A stretch of 64,000 nt of DNA from Demequina sp. (lineage in GTDB: Bacteria; Actinomycetota; Actinomycetes; Actinomycetales; Demequinaceae), in contig NZ_JADQBF010000070.1 of NCBI RefSeq assembly GCF_016278775.1, positions 19,123 through 83,122 of the forward strand. Direction: 5' to 3'. The notes under the pieces were generated by a model. That model had not been told where the DNA came from and ran no database searches. It saw only the letters and a list, made by a program, of their open reading frames with translations. A program made the position numbers and the translations under genes. This document shows positions 55,138-64,000 of the stretch, one piece after another; position 1 is the stretch's first letter, and every line of letters begins with the position of its first letter.

Positions 55138-55839
55138 ATGCGCACCTCACCCCGCAAGATCGGCCTGCTCGGCGGCATCACATGGCATTCCACCCTTGAG
55201 TACGAGCGTCTCATTCACGAGGGCGTCGCCGATGCCCTCCCTGGTCAGACGGCCGATCTCACGATCCGCCACTACAACTTCGGCGAGATCGCGGATCTCC
55301 AGGCGGCGGGCGACTGGGACGGGTTGGGCCGCCGATTCGCCGCGGACGCGCAATGGCTCGTCTCAGGTGGGGCGGAGGCCGTGCTCATTTGCGCCAACAC
55401 CATGCACGTTGTCGCACCCGCGGTCGAGGACGCGGTAAGTGTGCCCGTGATTCACATGGTCGACGAGACGGCGAAGGCCATCCGCGCGTCTGGCCTCGAC
55501 ACCGTCGCCCTGCTGGGGACAGGCTTCACCATGCGCATGCCGTTCTACCGAGATCGCATGGCGCAACACGGCATCACCACGATGGTGCCGGACGAGCCCG
55601 ACTTGCAGGCGATCCACGACCTCGTCTACACCGAGCTTGCGCGCGGCATCGTCAGCCAGGAGGGCCGCAATCTGGCACGCCGCGTCACCACCGACATCCT
55701 CGCGCGCGGAGCCCAAGGCGTCATTGCAGGCTGCACCGAGATCCCGATGGTCATGACGGCAGACGACGTCGACGTGCCCTACTTCGACGCCCTCGCGGTG
55801 CACGCCCAAGCAGCCGTCGAGTTCGCGCTGGCGGAGTAA
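55138..55839 (+). CDS. Aspartate/glutamate racemase family protein
   Basis: A 233-residue protein of the Asp/Glu racemase superfamily, in which two cysteines act as acid and base. Both are present in their contexts: CANTMH (about residue 85) and GCTEI (about residue 200). The typical opening GGMSWEST is GGITWHST here, so the substrate pocket may differ. It could racemise aspartate or glutamate or an unusual amino acid. It starts at ATG 55138, only 113 bases from the divergent MerR gene. Confidence 0.85.
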   Translation: MRTSPRKIGLLGGITWHSTLEYERLIHEGVADALPGQTADLTIRHYNFGEIADLQAAGDWDGLGRRFAADAQWLVSGGAEAVLICANTMHVVAPAVEDAVSVPVIHMVDETAKAIRASGLDTVALLGTGFTMRMPFYRDRMAQHGITTMVPDEPDLQAIHDLVYTELARGIVSQEGRNLARRVTTDILARGAQGVIAGCTEIPMVMTADDVDVPYFDALAVHAQAAVEFALAE

Positions 55840-55963: not shown

Positions 55964-58102
55964 GTGACACTGCCGCCGCGCGTTGTCCCCCCGTCCCAGG
56001 CCGCGATTCCAGGCTGGTGCCAACGCGACCAGATGGCCGCGAGCCACTTGGTCGCTCATGACGCCTTGCGCCGCGGCCCCGACGAACGCGCCCGGATGCT
56101 GCGGCGCATCGGCATCCGCAGAATCGTGTGGGACTGGCGCGAAGAACACCTTGGTGCCTTCGATGCCGAACTCGACGCGCTACGCCGTCACCAGGTGGCG
56201 CTGTCGGGCATGTGGACTCCGCTGCCCATGCCCGCGTTCGAAGAGCCCGACTACGCCAGCCGATTCGGCGTCGTCCCTATGGCGATCAAGACCCTCATCA
56301 CTGAAGCCGCGCGCCGGGGCTACGCCCCTGATCTGTGGACCCAGATTGGGTTCGGCCAGGCGGGCGCCCAGGTGCCCCTGTCCAACCAAGCTCATCAGGC
56401 GGAGGTGAACCGCGCCGCCGACCACCTCGCGGGGCTCGCTCGCCTGGCCAGGGGTCACGGCATGTGTGTGGTGCTGACCAACCACGGTGGATGGGCAGGG
56501 GAGCCGCGCACGCTCGTGGGTGTGGTGCAGGAGCTCGCACGCCGCGGGCTAGGCAACGTGGGGATTGGCTTCAGGCTTCAGCACGCGCACCACCTGATCG
56601 CTGACCTCGACCACCACATCAAGACGATGGAAGAGCACTTGGTGGCATTCATGCTGAGCGGCGCCGACGCCGGGGCCGAGTTGAGCGGCCGCGTCATCCT
56701 TCCCTTTGGGGCAGGCAGCAGGGACCGCTGGGTGACGCATGCGCTGCTGGAGTCTGGCTGGCGTGGCCAGTTGGTGATTCACGCGGTGGGCCAGGACGAC
56801 TCAGAGGCGCGACTCTTGGACAGCCTCGACGGGTGGGAGTGGTCGGTCGATCGCTTCCTCAGGCACCCGCGGCCACGCCCAGTGCCGAGGATCCTGGAGC
56901 CCACGTGGCCTCCCAACGCCGCGTGGACGGGCAGGGCCGTCGCCCCCACCCGAGCCGAACGCACGGTCCGCGCGGACGCCGTTCTTGCGGCTCAGGCAAC
57001 TGCCGCAGTCTCGGCTGCTACGGTCGCCACTGCCGCGGACCCGGCCGTTCCCAGGGCCGCGGCGGCGCAACCGGCCCCGGCGAGTCCCGACACCCACGTG
57101 CCGGGACCCCATGTGCCGACGCCCTACGGTCAACGTGCGCCAGAACGGCAGCCCGCACGCACCGAGTCCACGGCAGCGTACTTTCGCGCTCCGAATGCCG
57201 CGCCTCCACGACCTCCCGCCACGCCCCCGCTACCGCCCGCTGCGCCCTCGCCACCTCCCGCCGTGGACCTCGGCCCCACGCGCAGGCAGCGGCGTGCCGA
57301 GCGCGAGGAGGGTGAACGCACGGCTCGCGAGGCCACGAAGGCGGCGCGCAACGCCCAGCGCGAGGCCGCGCGGGGGCCAGAGCGCATCGGCCACCGTGAC
57401 GTGCGCATCATCGCCCCGGATCCGTACACGGGGGCCATCCACGCGCTGTTGCTCCACCTCGAGGACGCGGGCTTCACCGGTGCACCCAGGTCCTTCGGTT
57501 GGGACGACAAGGGACGCCACCTCGTCGAGTTCGTGCCAGGCACCAGAGCCGACCACCCCAAGGCGCCGGAGGCAGTGCTGGACCCGGCGCGCATCGGCCG
57601 CTTCATGAGCGACATGCACGACGCCCTCGAGAGCTTCGAGCCGCCTGACTACGCGCTGTGGTTCGACGGGCTGCCTCCGCCAGGCGGAGACCTCATCGTG
57701 CACCACGACATCGCTCCGTCGAACATCGTGGTGCGCGCCGACGGCACCCTGGTCGCAATCGATTGGGACGCCGCTGGCCCCGGCACGCGGCTGTGGGATT
57801 TGGCGTACGCCGCGCACGCCTTCACCCCCCTGTACCAGGCCGACGCCGACCTGGCACACGCGTCGCGGCGGCTGCGGGGCTTGGTGGACGGCTACGGCCT
57901 GGACGACGCGCATCGCAAGCAGTTGGTGCCGCTACTCGCGATGCGGTCTCAACGCATGTACGAGTACCTGGACAAGATGCGCGCCACCGGCGTTTCGCCG
58001 TGGACCGACCTGTGGGACAGGGGCATCGGGACGGTGTGGAAGGCCGACGCGCAATGGATTCGCGATCACTCTGACGTGTGGGAACGGGCGCTACTGAGCT
58101 AG
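55964..58102 (+). CDS. Fusion: TIM-barrel isomerase-like domain plus APH-type phosphotransferase
   Basis: A 712-residue two-domain protein. Residues about 35-300 look like the xylose-isomerase-like TIM barrel (AP endonuclease 2 fold): RRIVWDWREEHL, VVLTNHGGWAGEP, VGIGFRLQHAHH and LPFGAGSRDRW. Where metal-binding homologues have Asp in the strand before the His, it has Gln, so catalysis may be lost or altered. A Pro/Ala-rich linker (about 315-455) and a charged helix (TRRQRRAEREEGERTAREAT) follow. Residues about 480-712 are an aminoglycoside-phosphotransferase-like kinase with VHHDIAPSN (catalytic Asp582) and IDWDAAGPGTRLWDLAYAAH. GTG 55964 is the start. I know no named protein with this architecture. 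Confidence 0.8.
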   Translation: MTLPPRVVPPSQAAIPGWCQRDQMAASHLVAHDALRRGPDERARMLRRIGIRRIVWDWREEHLGAFDAELDALRRHQVALSGMWTPLPMPAFEEPDYASRFGVVPMAIKTLITEAARRGYAPDLWTQIGFGQAGAQVPLSNQAHQAEVNRAADHLAGLARLARGHGMCVVLTNHGGWAGEPRTLVGVVQELARRGLGNVGIGFRLQHAHHLIADLDHHIKTMEEHLVAFMLSGADAGAELSGRVILPFGAGSRDRWVTHALLESGWRGQLVIHAVGQDDSEARLLDSLDGWEWSVDRFLRHPRPRPVPRILEPTWPPNAAWTGRAVAPTRAERTVRADAVLAAQATAAVSAATVATAADPAVPRAAAAQPAPASPDTHVPGPHVPTPYGQRAPERQPARTESTAAYFRAPNAAPPRPPATPPLPPAAPSPPPAVDLGPTRRQRRAEREEGERTAREATKAARNAQREAARGPERIGHRDVRIIAPDPYTGAIHALLLHLEDAGFTGAPRSFGWDDKGRHLVEFVPGTRADHPKAPEAVLDPARIGRFMSDMHDALESFEPPDYALWFDGLPPPGGDLIVHHDIAPSNIVVRADGTLVAIDWDAAGPGTRLWDLAYAAHAFTPLYQADADLAHASRRLRGLVDGYGLDDAHRKQLVPLLAMRSQRMYEYLDKMRATGVSPWTDLWDRGIGTVWKADAQWIRDHSDVWERALLS

Positions 58103-59107
58103 CGTCTCGGAGCCAGGGATCCACCAGCCTGCCTCATCAAGCACCTGCCGCGCCACGTCTTCTCGCGCCACCGAGTCGGTGGCGACCACGCCGTCGTCGA
58201 GGTCGAGGCTCTCCAGAATCTCGTCCAGTTCCCTGGAGCGCTCGAGCCCGAACTCTCGCCAGCGACCGGCCGGCTCTCGCGCGGTGATGCGTTCCGTCCG
58301 AGTCTCCTCTGTGGCCGTCACCCGCACCACGGAGACCTGCGCCGGCCCCGCCCGGCTCGCGAAGGCGCGCGCATAGCGGTCGCGGTCGTCCGGATCCTCG
58401 ACCACTCTGGCCACCACGATGCACCCGTAGCCGCGTGCGCGATAGATCGGCGCGAGGGCAGCGAGTCCCAGCAACAGCAAGTGTTGTTGGTAGGGGTCGT
58501 TCGACGGCTCTGGCCTGGCCTGGCACAGGGCGTCGGCGTCGATGAAGGCGACCCGCACGCCCGCGTCGCCCAGCACGTCAGTGATGGCACACGCCGTGGC
58601 CGTCTTGCCAGCGCCCACGGCGCCATTGACCACGAGCAGCCGCGTGGGCAGCGCCTTGGCCATACAGATCGATCGCGGATCGTCGGCGTAGGTGCCGTAC
58701 GGGGGAATGCGTGCATAGCCGATGCCTGCATACAGGGCGACCGCCTCTGGCTGGGCCTCGCCGGTCTCCAACACAAGCCGGGTGGCACCCACGCGGAAGG
58801 CCGCGCGTTCGATCGCGCCCATCATCACCCTGGCGTGGCCGTGGCCGCGGTGCTCCGGACGCACGTACAGTCTCTTGATCTCGACGGTTCCCGGGCTGTC
58901 AGGGTGGTGGCCGGACCACCGCAGCAAGGTGGTGCCGACGGGCTCCCCCGCCTCCGTGAGCGCCAAGAGCACCAGGATCACCCCGTCTGGCCTGACGGGC
59001 GACTGGATCTCGGGCTCGCCGTAGCGATGCTCCAGTTCGGCGTCGAGTTCTTGCCACAGCGCGACAGCCCGCGAGTCGTCCATGCGCACTGACTGCACCG
59101 AGATCAT
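58091..59107 (-). CDS. Fusion: GNAT acetyltransferase plus P-loop kinase domain
   Basis: A 338-residue two-domain protein. Residues 1-150 form a GNAT N-acetyltransferase with the acetyl-CoA loop RPEHRGHGHA (83-92). Residues 155-338 are a P-loop kinase-like ATPase with GAVGAGKT (162-169), an Asp-rich Walker B-type VAFIDAD, and a late ERITAREPAGRW region like small-molecule or toxin kinases. The two activities in one chain suggest modification of a common small molecule, perhaps detoxification, but the substrate is unknown. It overlaps the end of the upstream fusion gene by 12 bases, tail to tail. Confidence 0.83.
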   Translation of the reverse strand: MISVQSVRMDDSRAVALWQELDAELEHRYGEPEIQSPVRPDGVILVLLALTEAGEPVGTTLLRWSGHHPDSPGTVEIKRLYVRPEHRGHGHARVMMGAIERAAFRVGATRLVLETGEAQPEAVALYAGIGYARIPPYGTYADDPRSICMAKALPTRLLVVNGAVGAGKTATACAITDVLGDAGVRVAFIDADALCQARPEPSNDPYQQHLLLLGLAALAPIYRARGYGCIVVARVVEDPDDRDRYARAFASRAGPAQVSVVRVTATEETRTERITAREPAGRWREFGLERSRELDEILESLDLDDGVVATDSVAREDVARQVLDEAGWWIPGSETLAQ

Positions 59108-61411: not shown

Positions 61412-64000
61412 CTAGACCTCTCGGCGCCGCCTGCCCACGATCACCAACGCCATGCCAGCGAAGAGTAGTTGCGCGGCCAGCGCCCCACCGACTGTCCCGC
61501 CTGTGACCGCGAGACCACTCGGCTCGGCTCCGAGTCGCACACCAAGAGAGGTGGACGCGGTGTGCCCGCCAGCGGTGACGCCGTTGACCTGCACTGTGTG
61601 AGCGCCGACGCCCAACGATGCTGGAAGCTTCACCATGCCGCTGAAGGTTCCGTCGCTCGCCACCGTCAACGCACCAAGTTTCATGGGGGTCGAGAAGATC
61701 CACACCTCGACCGTTGAACCCGGCTTGAAGCCTTCGCCACTCACCAAGACGTAGCCGCCCACGTAGCCCTCGAAGTACGCCTCGCCACCCCCGCCAGTCA
61801 CGAGCCGCGCGCTCGAGTCATACGCCTCAAGCGTCAGCGAGACGGAGGGCGTGGAGACCTTCCAACCTGCTCCCGCCGCTCCACTCGTCACGGTCACCCT
61901 CTGGCCATCGAGAGAGCCGTCGCCGACGCCAGGGTCCAGTTCAGGAGGTGCGCTCTGCCCCGGCATCGCCACGGGCGCTGAGACGGGAGTTCCCCACGTC
62001 GCGGATGAGGCGACTCCGTCGCCCGCTGCAGAGACCGCGCGCAGCGCCACGGAGTAGGCCTGACCATTCTCGAGGCCGAAGACTGTCAGGGGAGAGGTGG
62101 TGGTCGCCACGATGGAACTGCTCCATGTCGACCCACCGTCCACGGAATACCGGTAGCCCACAATCGCGCTACCACCGTCGTCTGCTGGCGGTGTGAAGGC
62201 CACGACGATGCTGTGGTCGCCCGCAGTGACGGAGTCGACCGTCGGCGCCGAGGCGATGGTGCGCGGCGTGCCGTCGGCGGCGCCTGAAGCCGCGCCCGGA
62301 CCAGCTGAGGTCACCGCGCGGAGCACGACCGAGTAGGTCGTGCCGTTCACCAGGCCGGTGATGGTCAGCGGGCTCGACGCCACGCCGAACGGGCCGGCCA
62401 GCCATGAGGTGCCCACGTCGAGGGAGTACTGGTATCCCGTCACCACCGCGCCGCCCGTCGAGCCTGGTGCGGTGAACTCAAGCACGAGGGACGCATCATC
62501 CGGTGTCACTGCCGTGACGACGGGAGCGGTCGCGGGGATCGCGTCCACCGTTCCCGAGTAGGTCGCCACATCAGTGCCGTGCGCGTTGGTTGCCGTGATC
62601 TCAACTGCGTAGGCCCCGACCGTGGTGGGGGTGCCGTGCACCTGGCCGTCGACCTCGAGAGTCAGGCCAGCGGGGAGTGCCCCATCGGTCACGGACCAGG
62701 TGGCCGTGGGTACTGCGCTGGCGGCCAGGGTCGTGTCATAGGCGACGCTCCATTGCAGGGTCCCCAGCGAGGTTGTCGAAATCGTGGGCACCGACTCGAC
62801 GCTACCCATGACGGTCATTGATGCCGTCCCGTGCAGGTTTGTCGCGGTCACCTCGAACACGTAAACCCCTGTCGTCGTCGGCATCCCTGCGAGCACGCCC
62901 GTGGTGGAGTCCAGTGTGACGCCGGTTGGCAGCACCCCGGCCGTGACGGCAAAGGTGGGTGTCGGATATCCCGCTGCGGTCACGGTCGCGGAGGGCGAGG
63001 CCCCCAGGATCATGAGCGTCGGCACGCCCGTGGGCACGCCCGGTGATTGTCCCGGAGTGGCGGATGCCTCGCTGGACGCCGCCGACCATCCGGCCTCGTT
63101 GTGTGCCTGCACCGTGAACGTGTACGTCTGGCCCACGGTGAGTCCGGTGAGAGTGCATGGGGAACTGCATTCGGTCTGCACGCCACCGGGCGTAGAGGTC
63201 ACCCGATACTTGTCCACCACCCGACCGCCGTCGAACGGGGGCGCCAAGAAGGACACGGTCACTTGCCTCTCCCCTGGGACGGCGCTGAGCGCGGTCGGTG
63301 CGTCGGGGACTGTGCGGGGAGTTCCCGTAGCAGAATTCGAGGCCGAGCCCCCGCCCGCTGCGGTCACGGCCCGCAGGCTGACCGAGTACGGCGTTCCGTT
63401 GGCGAGCCCCGCGATGGTGATCGGGCTGGTCGTGACACCGACCGGCCCTGAAAGCCATGTACCCCCGCCGTTCACCGTGTACTCATAACCGGTGACGGGG
63501 CTACCGCCACTCGTCGCGGGTGGAGTGAACTGCAGTGTGAGCGCACCGTTGTCCGCCGTGACGGTTCCGATCGCGGGCGCCGTGGCCGGGATCGGCACTA
63601 CGTTGCCCGCGTACGTGACGGTGTCCGCACCGTGCGTGTTGGTCGCGGTGATGTCGACCGAGTATGCCGCCACCGTGGTGGGCGTCCCGTGCAGTCGACC
63701 GCTGGCCTCGAGCGTCAGCCCCGCAGGCAGCGATCCTCCGGTGACCGACCACGTCTCCGTAGGAACCGCGCTTGCGGACAGCATGGCGTCGTAGGGCGTG
63801 CTCCAGCGCAGGGTGCCCAGAGCACTCGTGGCGATCGTGGGAATCGACTCGATGTCGCCGGTAAACGTTGCCGAGGCTCCACCGTACGTGTTGGTAGCGG
63901 TGACCTCGAAGGAGAAGGATCCGGTCGAGGTCGCCGCGCCGCCGAGCGCTCCCGAGGACGAGTCGAGCGTGACCCCCGTGGGAAGCGCACCCGCCGTGAC
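61412..64000 (-). CDS. Large repeat-built surface protein, C-terminal part (5' end outside window)
   Basis: The visible 862 residues are the C-terminal part of a giant exported protein; the frame stays open to the window's last base. It alternates putative Ig-like (He_PIG-type: PAGLTLE..G..HGTPTT..Y....TATN.HG) domains with fibronectin type III modules (VTGY.YS.....W.......PLTI.GL.NGT.YSV.LRAV). The last 240 residues add a further FN3 copy, a beta-rich domain (SVSLTLEAYDSS...), and the signal LAVTG-G, a hydrophobic helix and RRRRE. LAVTG fits class E sortase anchoring, common in actinobacteria. The start is unknown; the true start lies past 64000. Likely an adhesin or binding scaffold. Confidence 0.85.
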   Translation of the reverse strand, partial: VTAGALPTGVTLDSSSGALGGAATSTGSFSFEVTATNTYGGASATFTGDIESIPTIATSALGTLRWSTPYDAMLSASAVPTETWSVTGGSLPAGLTLEASGRLHGTPTTVAAYSVDITATNTHGADTVTYAGNVVPIPATAPAIGTVTADNGALTLQFTPPATSGGSPVTGYEYTVNGGGTWLSGPVGVTTSPITIAGLANGTPYSVSLRAVTAAGGGSASNSATGTPRTVPDAPTALSAVPGERQVTVSFLAPPFDGGRVVDKYRVTSTPGGVQTECSSPCTLTGLTVGQTYTFTVQAHNEAGWSAASSEASATPGQSPGVPTGVPTLMILGASPSATVTAAGYPTPTFAVTAGVLPTGVTLDSTTGVLAGMPTTTGVYVFEVTATNLHGTASMTVMGSVESVPTISTTSLGTLQWSVAYDTTLAASAVPTATWSVTDGALPAGLTLEVDGQVHGTPTTVGAYAVEITATNAHGTDVATYSGTVDAIPATAPVVTAVTPDDASLVLEFTAPGSTGGAVVTGYQYSLDVGTSWLAGPFGVASSPLTITGLVNGTTYSVVLRAVTSAGPGAASGAADGTPRTIASAPTVDSVTAGDHSIVVAFTPPADDGGSAIVGYRYSVDGGSTWSSSIVATTTSPLTVFGLENGQAYSVALRAVSAAGDGVASSATWGTPVSAPVAMPGQSAPPELDPGVGDGSLDGQRVTVTSGAAGAGWKVSTPSVSLTLEAYDSSARLVTGGGGEAYFEGYVGGYVLVSGEGFKPGSTVEVWIFSTPMKLGALTVASDGTFSGMVKLPASLGVGAHTVQVNGVTAGGHTASTSLGVRLGAEPSGLAVTGGTVGGALAAQLLFAGMALVIVGRRRREV
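62250..64000 (-). repeat. 1053-bp tandem repeat units in the surface protein gene
   Basis: Two independent landmarks recur exactly 1053 bases (351 codons) apart: the end of the LPTGVTLD segment (64000 and 62947) and the GTPTT/TATN.HG segment (63630 and 62577). The similar stretches are about 63303-64000 and 62250-62947; the bases between carry a more divergent FN3 module. The unit is thus He_PIG, He_PIG, FN3, FN3. The window probably contains only the last two units. Confidence 0.78.

Follow-up and report, generated by a model that had tools for sequence, protein, structure and literature searches.

The window, by which we mean the whole 64,000-nucleotide stretch of Demequina sp. DNA analysed here, contains an uninterrupted reading frame of 712 protein codons on the forward strand (55964-58102). 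The frame starts with GTG, and a ribosome-site-like stretch, GGTGAGGGGG, was read by eye approximately 10 bases 5' of this codon. The gene, its conserved neighbours and the features of its product are as follows:

55138-55839, plus strand: amino-acid racemase (TIGR00035, PF01177), conserved upstream neighbour in the same direction (profile matches, locus comparison)
55964-58102, plus strand: barrel-kinase fusion gene, 712 aa, GTG start (ORF reading, 17 intact fused orthologues, dN/dS)
56024-56863, plus strand: TIM barrel of the 3-epimerase / xylose-isomerase-like fold, residues ~21-300 (AlphaFold, Foldseek, PF01261 in 20/20 members, Spirosoma homologue)
56477-56482, plus strand: T172-N173 at the end of strand 5, with Thr in the first metal-ligand Glu column (alignment to MJ1311 (3wqo) and 4ovx, column counts)
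56570-56593, plus strand: FRLQHAHH, residues 203-210, at the end of strand 6, with Arg204 in the metal-ligand Asp column and His207 invariant (alignments, column counts)
56654-56662, plus strand: L231-S232-G233 at the end of strand 7, without the metal-ligand His (model, alignment, column counts)
56780-56782, plus strand: H273 at the end of strand 8, with His/Gln in the second metal-ligand Glu column (alignment, column counts)
56891-57370, plus strand: Pro/Ala-rich linker, pLDDT below 50 over most of its length, with a charged helix (residues 440-468) at 57281-57367 (linker comparison, AlphaFold)
57371-58099, plus strand: APH-type kinase domain without strand beta-1 and glycine-rich loop, residues 470-712 (profile match, alignments)
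57371-57412, plus strand: residues 470-483, a remnant replacing the LxGG..VVRxG.TVR[KR]P segment from beta-1 to beta-3 (alignment, column counts)
57698-57724, plus strand: catalytic loop VHHDIAPSN (column counts)
57758-57778, plus strand: metal-binding motif IDWDAAG (column counts)
58091-59107, minus strand: GNAT + AAA_33 fusion, conserved convergent neighbour with a 12-base overlap with the 3' end of the barrel-kinase gene (profile matches, locus comparison)

The same unbroken fusion was found in 17 more Demequina genomes, encoding proteins of 572-865 aa. The first-pass annotation had read the frame as a single 712-residue chain, and these 18 intact orthologues identify it as a genuine one-gene fusion, excluding both an assembly artefact and a frameshift absent in relatives. 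Pairwise dN/dS ranged from 0.09 to 0.16 in the barrel and from 0.06 to 0.25 in the kinase domain, with 0.20-0.55 in the linker between them; both barrel and kinase domain are under purifying selection. In D. litorisediminis NBRC 112299 (L061/L048) the fusion is broken by frame changes, for which sequencing error is likely because this genome was scored 50% complete.

The barrel is present in 21 of the 44 Demequina genomes searched and is fused to the kinase in one open frame in 18 of the 44. The remaining barrel genomes carry the broken frames L048/L061, a copy cut by the contig end (L049), which groups within the fused clade, or a solo barrel only (L047). In two Demequina genomes a solo barrel gene lies directly upstream of the fusion (L037:5374-8658 and L045:5609-8990), and the corresponding locus of a sister-genus genome encodes a 298-residue solo barrel. 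A GTDB scan found no fused family outside Demequina, the 14th match being a short kinase-motif match (E=1e-4), and no barrel was found in 394 other Actinomycetes genomes by a class-wide search in which only a few candidates were scored per genome. The group is small and taxonomically coherent, which the first-pass annotation had named as support for a new family. A literature search for the barrel-kinase architecture returned nothing relevant.

The fused barrels form one clade in the tree (support 100/100), in which some outgroup branches are long. Solo barrels terminate in PRIPEPxWPH and the fused ones run on as PRILEPTWPP at that point. The most economical account is that a kinase domain was joined once to the end of a solo barrel gene, and we favour a single origin for this Demequina-specific protein.

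The gene order MerR - racemase - barrel(-kinase) - convergent GNAT-AAA recurs across the genus, with a copper-type ATPase close by in most Demequina loci. In six barrel-less Demequina genomes the racemase gene directly adjoins GNAT-AAA, with gaps of about 15-100 bases; two other genomes have the racemase but no GNAT-AAA within the 1.5 kb read. Because barrel-less genomes join racemase to GNAT-AAA, the fusion gene is regarded as an optional insert at a fixed place. An obligate partnership with the racemase is excluded, since racemase genes occur without the fusion. The gene neighbourhood makes up no recognisable pathway. No match pointing to a phage origin was obtained in the phage collection searched, and a defence system was discarded, as the PD-T4-6 matches were weak and fell on the generic kinase loop. 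The AAA_33 part of 58091-59107 (minus strand) weakly resembles the Gar/GrdA gentamicin-resistance ATP-binding family, with a score of 34 bits that lies below the cut-off of 170. At 61412-63784 (minus strand) lies a gene for a 790-aa repetitive protein with fibronectin/Ig-like repeats and, by eye, a hydrophobic stretch and then basic residues at the C-terminus; judged from these features, the protein is probably surface-anchored.

The AlphaFold model of the N-terminal half contains eight barrel strands (residues 25-27, 53-56, 79-84, 123-126, 169-172, 199-204, 226-231 and 269-273). The nearest solved structures in Foldseek were D-psicose, L-ribulose and L-xylulose-5-phosphate 3-epimerases and YcjR, with TM-scores up to 0.72 on the target for the D-psicose, L-xylulose-5P and YcjR-type barrels (PF01261, AP_endonuc_2). 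The window barrel itself matches PF01261 below threshold (16.5-18.9 bits vs a cut-off of 31.1), and all 20 aligned relatives match this profile at E <= 1, so that the annotation of this half as a xylose-isomerase-like barrel stands. The Demequina barrel differs from these epimerase and YcjR barrels in its fused kinase domain, in the replacement of all four metal-ligand columns and in having no close relatives elsewhere in Actinomycetes, among the 394 genomes with few candidates each. The best barrel relative found outside Demequinaceae was a Spirosoma oryzicola TIM barrel, WP_232563238, with 29.5% identity over 277 residues (E=2e-20) and a PF01261 score of 46. Like the Demequina barrel, it is without the first metal Glu and the Asp; unlike the fusion, it is stand-alone, with no kinase domain, in a sugar-uptake/oxidoreductase/GH140 gene cluster.

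In enzymes with the 3-epimerase fold the metal is held by Glu, Asp, His and Glu at the ends of strands 5-8. Over the 18 fused proteins these columns contain Thr/Val/Ala, Gln/Arg, Leu-Ser-Gly and variants, and His/Gln: the Glu-Asp-His-Glu ligands occur in none of the four columns of any fused protein (T172, R204, L231/S232/G233 and H273 in the window). The counts exclude an intact metal site, and the case that had been named as contrary to an altered site, an alignment to a metal-binding isomerase with all ligands present, was not observed. The first-pass annotation had placed the alteration at the Gln of FRLQHAHH, in the position of the usual Asp. The site is indeed altered, but not at that residue and not at one residue only: Gln206 aligns with Gly or Tyr, and alignment to MJ1311 (3wqo) and to an AP endonuclease (3ngf) puts the Asp column at residue 204, which is Arg in five of the fused proteins and Gln in the other 13, with the conserved His at 207. 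Solo barrels and the Spirosoma relative are already without the first Glu and the Asp, so the loss of metal ligands predates the fusion.

Five barrel residues, D57, N173, H207, D235 and R243, are invariant over the fused set (n=18), which argues for a retained ligand pocket. By alignment, His207 and Arg243 would fall in the columns that bind substrate in the epimerase family, making ligand binding by the barrel plausible. The preferred interpretation of the barrel is a domain that binds its ligand without metal.

The Pro/Ala-rich linker, mostly disordered in the AlphaFold model, varies among members from 16 to 311 residues. The charged helix which had been described together with it (residues 440-468) occurs only in the subclade of the window protein, other members having different Pro/Ala-rich linkers in its stead.

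The last 243 residues, scanned alone, matched PF01636 with 40.1 bits (cut-off 23.2), in agreement with their annotation as an APH-type kinase domain, and VHHDIAPSN and IDWDAAG are present as quoted there. Of the 229 kinase columns, 101 do not vary among the 18 fused proteins. The statement that the kinase keeps its motifs is accurate for the C-lobe (H580, D582, N587, D600 and D602 invariant, 18/18) and not for the N-lobe: the glycine-rich loop is absent from 18/18 fused kinase domains, and at column 482, where the beta-3 basic residue would lie, none of these 18 proteins has Lys or Arg. The stand-alone relatives start with LxGG..xVVRxG.TVR[KR]P, corresponding to beta-1, glycine-rich loop, beta-2 and beta-3, and the loop is kept in 27 of 28 of them, namely 18 of the 19 nearest in the order and all nine others, which come from Actinomycetota, Pseudomonadota and Bacillota. 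Stand-alone actinobacterial APH-family phosphotransferases (PF01636; P0003-P0005, L102) are 39-49% identical to the fusion over the kinase domain and have the HxD...N and IDWD motifs in common with it; unlike the fusion, they carry the GGN loop and the TVR[KR]P strand and have no barrel. When the fused kinase is matched against other phosphotransferases in the databases, most alignments start only at about residue 16-20 of the domain. A loop hidden in the linker is excluded: the glycine-rich-loop pattern matched none of the 18 linkers, one of which is only 16 residues long.

One stand-alone kinase relative (L105, G592:C1:3978046-3978744) is without the GGN loop and retains TVRKP and GAPRSFG, which suggests that loop loss may have occurred more than once, independently.

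The kinase model gave weak matches to the PDB (E > 0.001; the best, AmiN, E=0.0013). Its N-lobe is of low confidence in both models, with pLDDT <50 for the first 28 residues, and was poorly modelled because the structure runs used only 13-14 sequences.

Loss of the glycine-rich loop has been described for the With-No-Gly-loop (WNG) family of Toxoplasma, which has an active member and a pseudokinase: WNG1 is active without the loop, with a K_M for ATP of about 520 uM, and its loop-less relative BPK1 is a pseudokinase unable to bind nucleotide (PMC6442604). In both the WNG kinases and the Demequina domain the first strand and the loop are missing and the catalytic motifs are retained. The WNG kinases, however, belong to a eukaryotic (coccidian) Ser/Thr lineage and keep the beta-3 (VAIK) lysine (PMC6442604), whereas the Demequina domain is of bacterial APH lineage and goes further, the beta-3 basic residue being lost as well. 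Of known systems the WNG family is the closest working analogue, and the Demequina protein may share its mode of action without belonging to it.

The history that we consider best able to account for these results begins with a solo barrel gene of 3-epimerase fold, with most metal ligands already gone, which would have gained a C-terminal APH-type phosphotransferase; the latter would have forfeited its first strand and glycine-rich loop, probably where the two genes were joined. For the barrel, the most likely function is to bind, without metal chemistry, a ligand of sugar-like or hydroxy/keto-acid type through D57, N173, H207 and R243; the disordered linker would tether it to the kinase domain. 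With the catalytic Asp, Asn and Asp kept in what may be an open active site, as in With-No-Gly-loop kinases, the C-terminal domain most likely still handles Mg-nucleotide or phosphate, and would phosphorylate a small molecule or a protein with low affinity for ATP. As a whole, a metal-free ligand-binding barrel joined to an open-site APH-type domain with residual phosphate or nucleotide chemistry is favoured tentatively, at a little under an even chance. The invariance of the five catalytic-loop and metal-binding residues and the loop-less activity of WNG1 are in its favour; the absence of Lys or Arg from column 482, where WNG kinases keep their lysine, the inactivity of BPK1, the low-confidence N-lobe, the weak PDB matches and a gene neighbourhood that suggests no pathway stand against it. 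The data show the fusion, its restriction to the genus, the single clade, the loss of the metal site and of the loop, the retained catalytic residues and the selection on both domains; that the barrel binds a ligand, that phosphotransfer persists and that the domains are coupled is what we infer.

A narrower form, in which the protein would be a bacterial APH small-molecule phosphotransferase acting without loop or beta-3 basic residue, with the metal-free barrel selecting or presenting its substrate, as an independent counterpart of the With-No-Gly-loop kinases, is credible, but somewhat less likely than not. The proposal of the first-pass annotation, that the barrel guides phosphorylation of a small molecule, is supported as to the fusion and the lost metal site; it assumes a kinase activity made doubtful by the missing loop and beta-3 basic residue throughout the family.

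These losses make a role in regulation, or another without kinase activity, almost as probable. The C-terminal domain may be a pseudokinase without ATP binding, a module for regulation or binding that the ligand of the barrel would switch and that perhaps acts on the racemase, a reading that we hold to be credible but on the doubtful side. Loss of both the loop and the beta-3 basic residue from 18/18 proteins, the dismantling of the barrel active site as well, the precedent of BPK1 as a confirmed pseudokinase (PMC6442604) and, for the racemase, the position of the gene directly 3' of it in the same direction are all consistent with such a module. Against it, the catalytic-loop and metal-binding residues are all invariant, and pseudokinases usually lose these. 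The racemase, moreover, needs no such partner, as at least eight genomes have it and lack the fusion gene. Because the whole catalytic loop is invariant, we lean to residual phosphate or nucleotide chemistry over a pure pseudokinase.

A bifunctional enzyme, with a metal-independent epimerase, isomerase or lyase barrel whose product is phosphorylated by the kinase domain, would agree with the resemblance of the fold to sugar 3-epimerases and with the invariance of His207, Arg243 and the catalytic kinase residues; it is unlikely, as known epimerases of this fold need both Glu residues and the two ligand/catalytic Glu columns are Thr and His/Gln here. Decay of both halves, or an annotation or frameshift artefact, suggested by motifs gone from both domains and by the broken frames of D. 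litorisediminis, which lie in a genome scored half complete, is already refuted by conservation, since 18 frames are unbroken and dN/dS lies far below 1 in both domains.

The pairing of a metal-less barrel with a loop-less kinase, found only in this genus among the genomes searched and maintained by selection, probably represents a new binding or phosphorylating role. Activity can be assayed directly on a single protein that can be purified, for which near relatives with the loop offer controls. An inactive domain would amount to a bacterial pseudokinase of metabolite-kinase type that is kept, together with its pseudo-epimerase partner, for binding alone; an active one would demonstrate phosphate transfer by an APH-type kinase in the absence of the loop thought to grip ATP, for which the WNG kinases are the reported precedent.
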